36,972 nucleotides of DNA from contig CALDDP010000249.1 of assembly GCA_937936805.1 (NCBI GenBank), forward strand, positions 1-36,972. The letters are read 5' to 3'. This document shows, piece by piece, positions 30,541 to 36,972 of this stretch. The stretch comes from an uncultured Gammaproteobacteria bacterium. Lineage in GTDB: Bacteria > Pseudomonadota > Gammaproteobacteria > GCA-001735895. The position numbers and the translations under genes were made by a program. Position 1 is the first letter of the stretch. Each line of letters starts with the position of its first letter. The notes beneath the pieces were generated by a model that saw only the letters and a program-made list of their open reading frames with translations, was not told where the DNA came from and searched no databases.

Positions 30541-30613
30541 GCTGCTGAAAAGCTTTGTAACGCACAACTGACTAGAATTCTTCTCCGTAAACAACCAACT
30601 ACGGAGATTATTG

Positions 30614-31072
30614 ATGAAACTTTCGAAGCGTATAATTGCTGCCGCTTTACTTATCGTTGGCAGTTCCGGTGCAGTATATGCATTCAGCAAACATAACGAC
30701 TGGGGTATGTCCCCCGAGGAAAAGGTCGAGTTCGTGACCGATCGGGTCACCAGCAAGCTGGACCTTGACAGTAAGCAACAGCAAAATTTTGCCGAACTGG
30801 CCACTACCGTTGCCCGAATCATGCAGGATGCCAGGATTACAAAGGCTCAGGACCTTACTGAAATTGAGAGCCTGTTACAGCAGCCCAGTTTCAACCAGGC
30901 CCGGGCGCTTGAACTGGTGCAGCAGAAAACCAGTATGATCAACGAAAAGGCCCCTCTCGTTATTGCGTCACTGGCGGTGTTTCTCGACTCGTTGAGCGCA
31001 GAGCAAAAGCAGCAACTGGAGAAGTTTTTGCAGCATCGGCACAAACACTCCCGCCATGGCGACAGTGATTAA
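30614..31072 (+). CDS. Spy/CpxP-like periplasmic protein
   Basis: Signal peptide MKLSKRIIAAALLIVGSSGAVYA; helical body, LSAEQKQQLEKFLQHRHKH C-terminal LTxxQ-like segment; directly upstream of an OmpR-type two-component pair. Confidence 0.72.
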   Translation: MKLSKRIIAAALLIVGSSGAVYAFSKHNDWGMSPEEKVEFVTDRVTSKLDLDSKQQQNFAELATTVARIMQDARITKAQDLTEIESLLQQPSFNQARALELVQQKTSMINEKAPLVIASLAVFLDSLSAEQKQQLEKFLQHRHKHSRHGDSD

Positions 31073-31088
31073 ACCCGAGCATTACCCG

Positions 31089-31119
31089 CAACGCGACTTC
31101 TCAAGCAGGAGTCGCGTTG
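31089..31119 (+). other. Intercistronic stem-loop between the Spy/CpxP-like gene and the response regulator
   Basis: CAACGCGACT ... AGTCGCGTTG, perfect 10-bp inverted repeat, extendable inward to about 13 bp (one G-U) with loop CAAGC. Confidence 0.72.
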
Positions 31120-31152
31120 TACAATGCAGGTTTAAATCACTCGGGCAACCGA

Positions 31153-31818
31153 ATGCGTAAATTATTACTAATAGATGACGACGAACGACTAGCTGAATCA
31201 CTGCGGCAGTATTTCGCCAAATTCGAATTGGAGCTAGATAATGAAACTCACCCCCTCAAGGCGATTGAACTCATCAAGCTGCATAGCTTTGACCTGATTG
31301 TTCTCGATGTGATGTTGCCTGAAATCGATGGCTTCGAGACCTGCCGCCGGATCCGGCAATTTAGCGAAATTCCGATTGTAATGTTGACCGCGCGTGGCGA
31401 AGTTATGGATCGGGTGGTTGGACTGGAGCTTGGTGCGGATGACTACCTGCCCAAACCCTTCGAACCACGCGAACTGGTGGTACGCATCCAGAATATCTTC
31501 AAGCGCGCCAGCACGGTAAATACGAACAGCGTTTACCGTCTGGGCGAGTTACGGCTGGATGTTGCCCGCAAGCAGCTAAAGCGTAATGACGTCGAAGTGG
31601 CCACTACCGCAGCCGAGTTTGGCCTGCTGTGTTTACTGGCACAAAATCAGGATCGCGTGTTATCGCGGGACGAAATTATGCAGGCTTTGCGCGGTCTGGA
31701 TGCGGATATTTACAGTCGCGCAATCGATGTACTGGTAAGCCGGCTCAGGCATAAGTTGCAGCAACCTGAATTGATTCGCACGGTGCGAGGACAGGGATAT
31801 CAGCTGGTGAATCGATAA
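31153..31818 (+). CDS. OmpR-family response regulator (CpxR-like)
   Basis: LLLIDDDERLAESL, LIVLDVMLPEIDGFETCRRIR, GADDYLPKPFEPRELVVRI, C-terminal winged helix (DIYSRAIDVLVSRLRHKLQ). ATG 31153 preferred. Confidence 0.93.
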   Translation: MRKLLLIDDDERLAESLRQYFAKFELELDNETHPLKAIELIKLHSFDLIVLDVMLPEIDGFETCRRIRQFSEIPIVMLTARGEVMDRVVGLELGADDYLPKPFEPRELVVRIQNIFKRASTVNTNSVYRLGELRLDVARKQLKRNDVEVATTAAEFGLLCLLAQNQDRVLSRDEIMQALRGLDADIYSRAIDVLVSRLRHKLQQPELIRTVRGQGYQLVNR

Positions 31819-33122
31819 TGTGGGATTACTTGCAAGCCAGGTGGCAAAGCCTGATCTTCAGGTTACTGTTTTATTTTTTGATTTCGAGCCTGGCGCTGGC
31901 AGTGATACTCGCCACCAGTTTTGCACAGCGTTTGAAACCGCATGTACATAACGAAATCCTGCCTAATGTCGCGCGCTATATCGACTACCTAATCGATGAT
32001 ATCGGCAACCCACCAGACCTGCCGACAGCCCGGAAACTGGCGAATGAGTTGCCGTTTGAAATCAGAATCGAGGGCAGGGGAGTAGACTGGGCCTCCAGCC
32101 CGAAACTGAAGGCGATCGACAGTTATGATTTCAAACCTGCACCCCGTCCTTACGATGACGTCTACTTCAGCCATCATAGAAGGGATCAATACCTGTTGAT
32201 CCAGGAACAGGGATACCGGTATTTATTTGCCGTCGATAACAGTTTTCGCCAGGGTGCCGAGCGTCGCCATTGGGTGTTATTTGTAGCGCTCGGTTCGGTT
32301 CTGTTTTTGCTTTACCTGGCGATCAGAAGAATGTTCAGACCGATTGCTGCGATCTCCAGCCAGGTAAAAAAGATAGGCGAGGGGGATCTTACGCAAACAG
32401 TCCAACTGCAGGGCAAAGGGGAACTGGCATTGCTAGCTACCGGAATCAACCGAATGGCGGCACAGATCAAGGCAATGCTGGAGAGTAAATCCGGTTTGCT
32501 GCTGGCGATAAGTCATGAACTGCGCTCACCAATGACGCGGATGCGCGTCAACCTCGAGCTACTCGAGGAGAGCGAAATTCAACAAAAGCTGATCGACGAT
32601 ATCCGTGAGATGGAAACGCTTGTCGCGGCCATACTGGAATCTGAAAAGCTAAACAGCAGCCATGCACCGTTAAACTTGAGTCGTTGCGAACTGCTCAACC
32701 TTATCGAGGAAGTCGTGCAGCACCATCCATGTCGTGATCGCATCAAGACCAGCATGTCTCCGATTGAACTCGATGTGGATCAGTTACGCATTAAACTACT
32801 GATAAAAAATCTGCTTGATAACGCCTGCCATTATTCTGGCGACGAGCAGAACCTGGTTGATGTCAGCCTGCGCCATGACCAGAAATTTGCCCTGATCGAG
32901 GTCCAGGACAGGGGCATTGGAATCGCGGCGGAGGATATACCGCGGCTAACCGAAGCATTTTATCGATCGGATCACGCAAGGCAGCGGGATACGGGGGGTT
33001 ATGGTCTCGGCTTGTATTTGTGCAAGCTTGTTGTCGAGGCTCATGGTGGACATATTATCATCGATAGTGAACCCGGCAGGGGTACCAGAATAAGCGTCAA
33101 ACTTCCGTTTGATAATAGTTGA
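31818..33122 (+). CDS. Sensor histidine kinase (CpxA-like: TM-periplasmic-TM-HAMP-HisKA-HATPase)
   Basis: TAATG coupling to the regulator; SHELRSPMTRMRVNLELL H-box, NLLDNACHYS N-box, DRGIGIAAEDIPRLTEAFYRSD and GGYGLGLYLCK G-boxes. Confidence 0.93.
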   Translation: MWDYLQARWQSLIFRLLFYFLISSLALAVILATSFAQRLKPHVHNEILPNVARYIDYLIDDIGNPPDLPTARKLANELPFEIRIEGRGVDWASSPKLKAIDSYDFKPAPRPYDDVYFSHHRRDQYLLIQEQGYRYLFAVDNSFRQGAERRHWVLFVALGSVLFLLYLAIRRMFRPIAAISSQVKKIGEGDLTQTVQLQGKGELALLATGINRMAAQIKAMLESKSGLLLAISHELRSPMTRMRVNLELLEESEIQQKLIDDIREMETLVAAILESEKLNSSHAPLNLSRCELLNLIEEVVQHHPCRDRIKTSMSPIELDVDQLRIKLLIKNLLDNACHYSGDEQNLVDVSLRHDQKFALIEVQDRGIGIAAEDIPRLTEAFYRSDHARQRDTGGYGLGLYLCKLVVEAHGGHIIIDSEPGRGTRISVKLPFDNS

Positions 33123-33139
33123 CCATTTTAGTCAGGATT
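33115..33139. promoter_or_regulatory. IscR type-1-like operator overlapping the iscR promoter
   Basis: ATAGTTGACCATTTTAGTCAGGATT matches 22 of 25 positions of the remembered E. coli type-1 consensus ATASYYGACTRWWWYAGTCRRSTAT; overlaps -35 TTGACC (33119-33124), spacer 16 bp, -10 TATACT (33141-33146). Confidence 0.65.
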
Positions 33140-33175
33140 GTATACTGATGCGGTTTGACGTTAACCTCATTTACG

Positions 33176-33634
33176 ATGCGACTATCCACTAAAAGCCGTT
33201 ATGCAGTGACATCACTGCTCGACCTGGTAATGCATTCCGACCATGGTCCTGTCTCGCTCGCCGACATTTCCATCCGGCAGGGCATTTCACTCTCGTACCT
33301 GGAACAGTTGTTTGCCAAAATGCGGCGCAACAAGCTGGTAGTGAGCACCCGTGGCCCGGGTGGCGGTTACAGCCTGGGCGAGTCACCTGACCAGGTCTGC
33401 ATTGCGGATGTGATCAACGCGGTCGATGAGGAAATGCAGGTCGCCGACAAGGATGTAAGCAACGGCTCTCCGAGTTACGAGCCCTGTTTGACCGAGCAGT
33501 TGTGGCAGGAGCTGAGCACTGAAATTGAAAATTATCTGACCACGATTTCGCTCGCCGATATGATGCGTAATAACGAAGTACAGGAACTTTCCCGTGCGCA
33601 TGATTTGCGCCAGAAGCAACCCAAGCTTATTTAA
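33176..33634 (+). CDS. iscR: Rrf2-family regulator IscR, lacking most Fe-S ligands
   Basis: MRLSTKSRYAVTSLLDLV, LADISIRQGISLSYLEQLFAKMRRNKLV, STRGPGGGYSLG; position immediately upstream of iscS. Confidence 0.93.
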   Translation: MRLSTKSRYAVTSLLDLVMHSDHGPVSLADISIRQGISLSYLEQLFAKMRRNKLVVSTRGPGGGYSLGESPDQVCIADVINAVDEEMQVADKDVSNGSPSYEPCLTEQLWQELSTEIENYLTTISLADMMRNNEVQELSRAHDLRQKQPKLI

Positions 33635-33638
33635 ACCG

Positions 33639-34787
33639 ATGCCCGTTTACCTCGACCATAACGCTACTTCACCGATGCACCCGGAAGTCGTGGATGCCAT
33701 GTTGCCGTTCCTGCAGAATCCGACCGGCAATCCATCGAGCCTGCACAGCTATGGTCGTATGGCGCGCTCAGCAATTGAATCGGCGCGCGCGGAAGTCGCA
33801 GTCCTGTTGGGCTGCTCGAGCCAGGCCGTGATTTTCACCTCGGGCGGAACCGAGGCGAATAACCTGCTGTTAAAAGGATATGTCGATAGCAGCATCGGTC
33901 GACCCATTGTCAGTACTGAAATAGAACATCCCAGCATTCTCGAGCCACTCAGGCAGCTGCAGGCTGAAGGGCAGGCCGTGGTTTTACTGAAACCTGATCA
34001 CGACGGGCGTATCGACCTGCAGTCGGCCAGCCCGGTTCTGGCCAGTGCCAATGCGCAATTGTTATCGATTATTTATGCCAATAACGAAACCGGTGTAATC
34101 CAGCCGGTTGCCGAGCTTGCAGCGATGGTCGATCGCGATTCCTGCCTCGTGCATAGTGATGCCACCCAGGCCGTAGGTAAAATACCGCTCGACATGGCGC
34201 AGCTGGATATCGATTCCCTCAGTTTCTCGGCCCACAAGCTACGCGGACCACAGGGTGTGGGGGCACTGATTGTCAATCGCAAACCGAGGAATATTCTGAT
34301 CAGCGGTGGGCACCAGGAAAATAATCTTCGCGGCGGTACCGAGAATGTCGCCGGGATTGTGGGATTAGGTAAGGCGGCGCGACTTGCACGACTTGAAATG
34401 GAGCAGAAAAAACACCACCTTACTGAACTGCGAGATCTTTTTGAAATCAGGCTGGCCGCCATTCCGGGCAGCGTCGTTTTCGGCCAGCAGGCACCACGAC
34501 TACCGAACACGACCTATTTTTCGTTGCCCTATTATCATGGCGAAACCCTGTTGATGGAGCTGGATCGGGCTGGTTTCGCTCTTTCCAGCGGATCGGCCTG
34601 TCAAAGCGCCGTGACCGCTCCCAGCCACGTACTCAAGGCAATGGACGTCGACGACAATCTCGCTTTAAACGCAGTTAGAGTAAGTTTTGGCATGAATAAC
34701 AGCCTGCAGGAAGTCGAAATGTTAGCTACGAAACTTCAGCAATTAGTAAACAAGTTGCCCACGGTAATCCGCCAGGCAGCGGTGTAG
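33639..34787 (+). CDS. iscS: Cysteine desulfurase (NifS/IscS-like)
   Basis: [46 protein letters not shown] (PLP Lys), [22 protein letters not shown] (active-site Cys). ATG 33639 preferred. Confidence 0.93.
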
Positions 34788-34797
34788 AGAGATACAA

Positions 34798-35121
34798 ATG
34801 GCAATCCATCTTAGCGATATTGCAGCATCCCGAGTGCAGCATTTTTTAGCCAACCGCGGCAAAGGCCTCGGCTTGCGTCTAGGTGTCAAAACTACCGGCT
34901 GCTCCGGGCTCGCCTATGTCATCGAATTTGTCGATGAGGTTCAGGATGACGATGAAGTGTTCGAGACCAAGGGAGTCAAGGTTGTGGTTGACAGGAAGAG
35001 CCTTGTTTTTCTAGATGGTACCGAGGTCGATTTTGCCAAGGTCGGGCTCAATGAAGGATTTCAGTTCAAGAATCCCAATGCCAAGGATGCCTGTGGCTGC
35101 GGCGAAAGCTTTACCATCTAA
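34798..35121 (+). CDS. iscA: Iron-sulfur cluster assembly protein IscA
   Basis: 107 aa A-type carrier: [17 protein letters not shown] and C-terminal CGCGESFTI. Confidence 0.95.
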
Positions 35122-35139: not shown

Positions 35140-35679
35140 ATGCAGTCCCCGGACCTTAGCCAGACTTATTTCGAGCTATTTGGAATAAACCCTGCTTTCG
35201 ATATCGATTGCAGCCGTTTACATGCCGAACAGCAGCGCCTGCAGGCTGCCTATCATCCCGACCGATACGTCAGCGCCAGTGAACACGATAAACGGGTTTC
35301 GGTGCAGGTAGCATCCTGGGTTAACCAGGCCTATGAAACGCTGCAGGATCCGGTAAAGCGTTCTCGTTATCTGCTGGAAATCAGTGGGGCCGATATTCCT
35401 GATGATTCGACGACAACCTCCGATACTGAATTTTTAATGGAGCAAATCGAATTGCGGGAGCAGGTCGAGTCCTGCCGGCATGGAGAAGGTGGTCTGCAGC
35501 GAAGTTACCAGATCGAAACACAGCTGGCGCACCGAGCAGACGAACTGGCCAGGGAATTCACTTCTCACTTTACAGCTGCCGAGCTTGACAAGGCCGTCGC
35601 CAGCAGCCGAAAAATGCAGTTCCTGCAGCGTATCCAGCAACAGTTATCCGAGCTTCAGTTCGAACTGGAGGAATCCTGA
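35140..35679 (+). CDS. hscB: Fe-S cluster co-chaperone HscB
   Basis: J-domain with HPD ([48 protein letters not shown]) and C-terminal helical domain. Confidence 0.95.
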
Positions 35680-36972
35680 TGGCCCTGCTGCAGATATCTG
35701 AACCGGGTGAAGCAACCGCCCCCCATGCGCATCGCCACTCAGCGGGAATCGATCTCGGCACGACCAACTCGTTAGTGGCGACGCTGCGCAGTGGCGAGGC
35801 AGTTTGTTTACCCGATGAAAATGGGCGCAGTTTGTTGCCATCGATAGTCAACTTCGGTGACGCGCAAACCCTGGTGGGATACGAGGCGCAGGCGCTGCAA
35901 ATCAGCGATCCGCTGAACAGCATCGCTTCGATCAAGCGACTGATGGGTAGGGCCCGGGAAGACGTGATTCAACTTGGTGATGCCGTCCCCTATGAATTTG
36001 TTACCAGCGAAGGAAGCAACGTGCCGAGAATCCGTACTCGTAAGGGTGATCTGAGTGCGGTGGAAATATCTGCCGAAATTCTCAAAACATTGGCCTATCG
36101 CGCTACTCAAAGTATTGGCGGTGACCTGGACGGCGTCGTCATCACGGTACCGGCTTACTTTGACGATGCGCAACGCCAGGCAACACGCGACGCGGCGACC
36201 CTGGCCGGGTTAAATCTATTCCGCCTGTTGAATGAGCCCACCGCGGCTGCTGTCGCATACGGCCTCGACCGGGACACTGATGACCTGATTGCCGTTTATG
36301 ATCTCGGTGGTGGTACCTTCGACATCTCGATTCTGCGGCTTAACAGGGGCGTGTTTGAAGTCCTGGCAACCGGGGGAGATTCATCGCTGGGTGGCGATGA
36401 TATGGATCATGCGCTGGCAGAGTGGATCATCAGGCAGGGCGGGTTTGCCGATATCGATGCCAGAATGGCGCGCAATATCCTGCTGGCTGCTCGGCAGGCC
36501 AAGGAAAACCTCACTACGACCGCATCGGCCGATATTCTGATCGACTATCAGCAACAGCAGTGGAGTGGAACTATCGATCGACACCAGTTCGACGAATTAG
36601 TACGCCCACTGATCCAGAAAACCCTGACTGCCTGCAGGCGAGCTTTGCGAGATGCCGGAATCTCTAAAAACGATATCGGCCAGGTGGTCATGGTCGGAGG
36701 TTCGACCCGCGTACCTCTGGTGCAGTCGACCATAGCCGAGTTTTTCGAACGTGAACCCATGTGCGATCTTGATCCCGATAAGGTAGTCGCGATCGGCGCC
36801 GCGATACAGGCGGATATCCTGGCTGGAAACAAGCCAGACAGCGACATGCTCCTGCTCGACGTGCTGCCGTTATCGCTCGGCATAGAAACCATGGGTGGAT
36901 TGAGCGAAAAGATCATCAACCGGAATACCGCCATTCCGGTGGCCAGGGGGCAGGACTTCACCACCTTCAAGG
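35679..36972 (+). CDS. hscA: Fe-S cluster assembly Hsp70 chaperone HscA, N-terminal part (continues past the window)
   Basis: ATGA overlap with hsc[43 protein letters not shown]..., [63 protein letters not shown]; frame open to the last base, so absent from the ORF track. Confidence 0.95.

Follow-up and report, generated by a model that had tools for sequence, protein, structure and literature searches.

The window analysed here is a stretch of 36,972 nucleotides, contig CALDDP010000249.1 of an uncultured gammaproteobacterial genome (G000) that comprises 348 contigs and is 87% complete. The genus to which it belongs consists of uncultured Gammaproteobacteria, the Olavius algarvensis Gamma 3 endosymbiont among them. 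The locus reads lexA/suhB/trmJ, a Spy-like gene, a response regulator, a histidine kinase, iscR2, iscS2, iscA, hscB, hscA and fdx, the last of these known from relatives, and it lacks an iscS-iscU pair. In the genus, trmJ and iscR2 are separated by the Spy/LTXXQ-like gene, the response regulator and the histidine kinase (30611-33122), and the iscR2 operator overlaps the end of the histidine kinase gene. With a type-1 operator ahead of it, iscR2 opens an isc operon that has no canonical iscS and iscU. The features are listed in Table 1.

Table 1. Features of the iscR2 locus, in coordinates of the window
Feature	Position	Strand	Basis
Type-1 IscR operator ATAGTTGACCATTTTAGTCAGGATT, predicted, 22/25 to the E. 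coli consensus, over the -35	33116..33140	+	Motif match; conservation in 30 promoters
Promoter TTGACC-16 bp-TATACT	33119..33146	+	Read from the sequence; -10 inside the conserved block
iscR2, IscR/Rrf2 regulator of 152 aa (ATG start to stop), without ligands C92, C98 and H107	33176..33634	+	ORF, profile matches, phmmer alignment
Former cluster loop (E. coli residues 86-104)	33431..33487	+	Column table; AlphaFold2 pLDDT
Position 92, codon AAG, Lys; Lys/Arg in 39/39 orthologues	33449..33451	+	Bases and alignment columns
Position 98, codon TCT, Ser; small residue in every orthologue	33467..33469	+	Bases and alignment columns
Cys104, codon TGT; sole retained ligand, invariant	33485..33487	+	Bases and alignment columns
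Position 107, codon GAG, Glu; Glu in 39/39 IscR2, His in all ligand-complete IscRs	33494..33496	+	Bases and alignment columns
iscS2, second, NifS-like cysteine desulfurase	33639..34787	+	Profile match
iscA	34798..35121	+	Profile match over the IscA cut-off
hscB	35140..35679	+	Profile match
hscA, truncated by the contig end; fdx next in relatives	35679..36971	+	Profile match; gene order of relatives

The initial annotation had described an IscR that has lost three of its four [2Fe-2S] ligands while keeping a conserved DNA-binding part, and both observations were borne out. E. coli IscR (4hf1) is aligned with IscR2 by phmmer at E=1.8e-39 and without gaps across the ligand region, and the alignment and the codons agree that the canonical set C92/C98/C104/H107 is replaced by K, S, C and E, C104 alone being kept. 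The recognition helix residues S40, E43 and Q44 and the wing residue R59 are present in invariant columns, and the dimerisation helix is retained in the sequence. The window protein also has Cys75, where related genera have Ser or Asn. IscR2 scores 121.6 bits with the Rrf2 superfamily profile PF02082 (cut-off 30) and 168.5 bits with the IscR equivalog profile TIGR02010, under the cut-off of 207.55; the ligand-complete IscR of the same genome, at 201.1 bits, also stays slightly under the latter cut-off. The nearest structural matches of the fold predicted by AlphaFold2 are apo-IscR structures. In the monomer model the loop is disordered, with pLDDT <50 at residues 87-94, and loop confidence is marginally below that of the complete copy, a difference too small to use. 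Since three of the four ligands are absent and the C92A exchange alone abolishes the cluster of E. coli IscR (PMC12594620), a canonical [2Fe-2S] site in IscR2 appears very unlikely.

The ligand loss is common to 39 distinct orthologous sequences from one genus and relatives of its family, which rules out a sequencing error or a one-off odd gene. All 39 have K or R at position 92, one of S, A, G, P or T at position 98, C at 104 and E at 107. Whether the loss forms a clade had been posed as a check, and it does: in a tree built without the loop columns the 39 ligand-poor proteins are one clade with support of 100/99. The shared residues place the loss of three of the four ligands before the divergence of this clade. 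Its specific fixed changes include G7S, A13S, A18V, L49M, K103P and H107E, with a further fixed substitution at position 71. Pairwise dN/dS has a median of 0.06 over the whole gene, 0.27 within the former loop and 0 for residues 102-115. The former loop varies among the 39 orthologues, save for K/R92, G97, Y/F101, E102, P103 and C104. Judged by these codon comparisons, iscR2 is under strong purifying selection.

A second IscR of the same genome (IscR1) is encoded on contig C9 (L001 1286-1759, minus strand) and carries the full ligand set KCGGKGNCSQGEKCLTH; canonical IscS is encoded directly after it. Ligand loss without a substitute IscR in the genome is ruled out by this complete copy. At least two IscR matches were found in 27 of the 31 other genomes of the genus. 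Throughout the genus and family the isc genes occur in two halves, iscR2-iscS2-iscA-hscB-hscA(-fdx) at the window locus versus iscR1-iscS(-iscU) elsewhere, and in better-assembled relatives the second locus reads sdhCDAB-sdhE-ygfX-DUF1249-iscR1-iscS-iscU. Other families have the unsplit order suhB-trmJ-...-iscR-iscS2-iscS-iscU-iscA-hscB-hscA-fdx (L053; L056 up to its contig end). Since each half has its own iscR at its head and the unsplit order exists in other families, the isc operon was split. The iscS2 gene, which directly follows iscR in the window, lies between iscR and canonical iscS in the unsplit operons (L053, L056, L055). No iscU was found in G000; this is most likely an assembly gap, since contig C9 (2831 bp) ends right after iscS, where relatives carry iscU. 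The initial annotation had treated IscR2 as the regulator of its operon. This holds only in part: IscR2 heads the isc genes of the window, but a ligand-complete IscR, which the annotation itself had listed as a possible refutation, is present on C9, and the operon is divided between both. The question thereby shifts from how this operon senses Fe-S to how two IscRs share the task. From the genomic sequences compared, the loss of the cluster site in one of two IscR paralogues is real, selected and lineage-wide.

The operator that had been proposed at 33115-33139 was confirmed; the type-1 match is 25 bp long and covers 33116-33140. Apart from its three W positions, the block AATAGTTGACCA(www)TAGTCAGGATTGTATACT does not vary among 30 orthologous iscR2 promoters. 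Operator and -10 are thus near-invariant, while the flanks past the immediately adjacent bases are 38-54% identical. The iscR1 promoter has a palindromic type-1 site ATTCCTGACTAAATTAGTCAGGAAT right after its -10, so that a predicted type-1 IscR site is present at both promoters. In six genomes of the genus, zero-mismatch matches to the core were found only at the iscR1 and iscR2 promoters, two of the six having only the iscR2 site. The idea of a wider regulon was dropped, as one-mismatch matches to the 17-base core were about as numerous as those of a reversed-pattern control, and no further type-1 targets are claimed. The C at position 10 of the operator (TTGACC) was considered as a mark specific to IscR2 and discarded, because the -35 of the iscR1 promoter is TTGACC too; it may be a mere promoter preference. 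Related genera (L102, L104, L106, L107) have two tandem type-1-like sites upstream of iscR2, and the genus of the window has one.

The classical target of apo-IscR, in its role as an activator, is SUF. SUF was not found in 24 of the 25 genus genomes searched, so that this role has no target there, and the candidate reading of IscR2 as an apo-type IscR serving suf as in E. coli was rejected. Residue E43 of E. coli IscR reportedly disfavours type-1 binding by the apo form. By the E. coli scheme, a protein that resembles apo-IscR and has E43 would not be expected to bind a type-1 site such as the one upstream of iscR2. Type-1 sites of E. coli are bound by [2Fe-2S]-IscR only (PMC12594620; PMC5411485), and the clusterless variant IscR(C92A) recognises type-2 sites and leaves the type-1 promoter PiscR unrepressed (PMC12594620).

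To survey the distribution of ligand-less copies, 196 class-level genomes were sampled evenly; an IscR-like match at E<=1e-20 was obtained in 136 of them. From the genomes with at least two IscR-like matches, 41 were re-listed and 40 stretches taken, mostly around lower-scoring copies. A copy without the ligand set is held by 39 of the 40 stretches (the exception, L189, is complete), a proportion that the choice of low scorers biases towards ligand loss and that is not an estimate of frequency. Ligand-less IscR-like copies thus occur in 38 further gammaproteobacterial genomes, and 36 of the 38 also hold a ligand-complete IscR by sequence. One copy that fails a strict ligand pattern (L218) is complete on reading, RCSGANNCHDGEQCLAH, and in G212 the contig breaks off within the second IscR copy, past the first Cys. 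A ligand-complete IscR was not found in G116, unlike the 36 genomes. Only ligand-poor IscR-like copies were found in G116 (L186/L195) and in G228 (L198), which are exceptions to the rule of a complete plus a ligand-less copy.

Seven of the ligand-less copies, from several gammaproteobacterial families, adjoin an iscU-like gene (L162, L166, L167, L168, L176, L182, L187), and others adjoin DUF1249. Family f2 (L057 3814-4296; L154) shows the reciprocal layout, with the complete IscR at the suhB-trmJ locus and the ligand-less copy by the DUF1249 gene. In G192 a ligand-less iscR stands alone after suhB-trmJ-cysE (L174 2941-3393), with no isc genes behind it and a convergent ispG-like gene next; this genome holds a complete IscR elsewhere (L190). 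The tree, with moderate support of 90/81, suggests two old IscR lineages, A (trmJ/isc operon) and B (DUF1249/iscU). IscR2 of the window groups with A and the IscR1 of the same genome with B; most sampled genomes show the opposite, a complete A copy and a ligand-less B copy. A single origin of all ligand-less copies was rejected (p-AU 0.012; single branches are weak, with about 112 columns). One clade of the IscR1 and IscR2 of the same family was not rejected (p-AU 0.145), but the best tree disfavours sisterhood; membership of either clade rests on about 115 columns. By these comparisons, ligand-less IscR paralogues are widespread in Gammaproteobacteria, occur nearly always beside a complete copy and have more than one origin.

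On balance, IscR2 is probably a working paralogue of IscR with DNA binding that a canonical [2Fe-2S] cluster no longer gates, Fe-S feedback being provided by IscR1 in trans. [2Fe-2S]-IscR1 would exert this feedback on both half-operons through the type-1 sites, and IscR2 would be the always-on, cluster-independent partner. IscR2 might sit on its own operator, or compete for it, or else form mixed dimers with IscR1; either arrangement would set a floor or a ceiling on how far the transfer and chaperone half of the pathway is expressed. Two former ligand positions hold the invariant residues K/R92 and Glu107, which could conceivably form a salt bridge in place of the cluster. Counting against a clusterless IscR2 is R. 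sphaeroides IscR, which has no canonical ligands and yet shows an Fe-S chromophore that depends on a single Cys elsewhere in the protein (PMC4618611). A broader reading is offered more tentatively, as something that could well turn out otherwise: Gammaproteobacteria would repeatedly divide IscR into a sensing and a cluster-independent copy, and this family would have swapped the two, the suhB-trmJ copy having lost the cluster site and the DUF1249/iscU copy having kept it. The two might cooperate, for example as mixed dimers, one signal being read differently by the two half-operons.

The main rival to a cluster-independent IscR2, which is regarded as possible but rather unlikely, is a sensor based on Cys104, either a single-Cys Fe-S cluster or a thiol switch, through which the redox or Fe-S state would still control the operon. 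Cys104 is present in all 39 IscR2 proteins and lost by most other ligand-less IscR copies, which suggests that the thiol has a job, and the residues Y/F101-E102-P103-C104 and E107 are fixed. All ligand-complete IscRs, however, also have C104, where the dimerisation helix begins, so that its role may be structural. Precedents exist for both forms of sensing, as the Fe-S chromophore of R. sphaeroides IscR needs one Cys (PMC4618611) and S. aureus CymR is inactivated when a surface thiol is oxidised (PMC9338935), but the R. sphaeroides Cys aligns with no canonical ligand, hence its site differs from Cys104.

It is improbable, though conceivable, that IscR2 mimics the holo form, K/R92, E107 and the helix 1 changes G7S and A13S locking the cluster-bound shape, and acts as a constitutive type-1 repressor of its own operon. 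E43, which is said to disfavour type-1 binding by E. coli apo-IscR, is unchanged in IscR2, and the AlphaFold2 model is that of a monomer whose pLDDT falls below 50 at residues 87-94. In line with such a lock are the fixed substitutions at 7, 13, 18, 49, 71, 103 and 107, the conserved basic residue at 92, the autogenous placement of iscR2 behind a near-invariant type-1 operator, and the contact of residue 8 of the partner subunit with the cluster in ScNsrR (PMC5411485). That IscR2 is a decaying relic, held by its place at the operon head and no longer a regulator, is a highly improbable reading already contradicted by the selection data from these sequences, for although the rate in the former loop is about four times that of the protein as a whole (0.27 versus 0.06), the whole-gene dN/dS is low, each of the 39 orthologues from the genus and its related genera has an open ORF, and the recognition residues are invariant.

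IscR is the textbook sensor of Fe-S homeostasis, and studies of clusterless IscR have dealt with engineered mutants and with Rhodobacteraceae. Natural, selected ligand-less paralogues beside a complete IscR are a ready-made test of the solo role of apo-IscR, and also of whether reading a type-1 site requires a cluster. The open-access papers searched held no description of a complete IscR paired with a ligand-less one; the paired names IscR1/IscR2 lead there to ISCR mobile elements, not to IscR paralogues. The 38 further genomes with ligand-less copies point to a layer of Fe-S regulation that is common and apparently undescribed.

Among known systems, E. coli IscR (TIGR02010 family) resembles IscR2 in its ungapped alignment at 48% identity and in its recognition residues, wing and fold. 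The probable clusterless state of IscR2 has its likeness in engineered E. coli proteins, namely C92A and the Cys-to-Ala/Ser triple mutants 4HF0, 4HF1 and 4CHU. In contrast to E. coli IscR, IscR2 had C92, C98 and H107 replaced by evolution, scores under the equivalog cut-off and coexists with a ligand-complete paralogue, and SUF is missing from nearly all members of the genus. In a phylogeny of 641 Rrf2 members the three Cys are kept by most homologues (PMC9973013). CymR of B. subtilis and S. aureus is likewise an Rrf2 regulator and a structural match, and is without an Fe-S cluster (PMC9338935), but it regulates cysteine metabolism, has a different Cys and is a much lower match, its NCBIfam profile giving 87.7 bits with IscR2 against a cut-off of 195. 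The IscR of Rhodobacteraceae (R. sphaeroides; D. shibae 7ZPN) is, like IscR2, a natural protein without the Cys3His set whose gene leads an Fe-S biogenesis operon. R. sphaeroides IscR has no canonical ligands and needs the single Cys142 for its Fe-S chromophore (PMC4618611), and in the D. shibae 7ZPN chain, unlike in IscR2, C104 and H107 correspond to Ser and Asn. The Rhodobacteraceae protein is the IscR of its operon and has its sole Cys at the non-canonical position 142, whereas IscR2 has a complete paralogue and, instead of a single C-terminal Cys outside the canonical positions, the canonical C104 together with Cys75. R. sphaeroides IscR is the nearest precedent for IscR2, but with its Cys at a different position.
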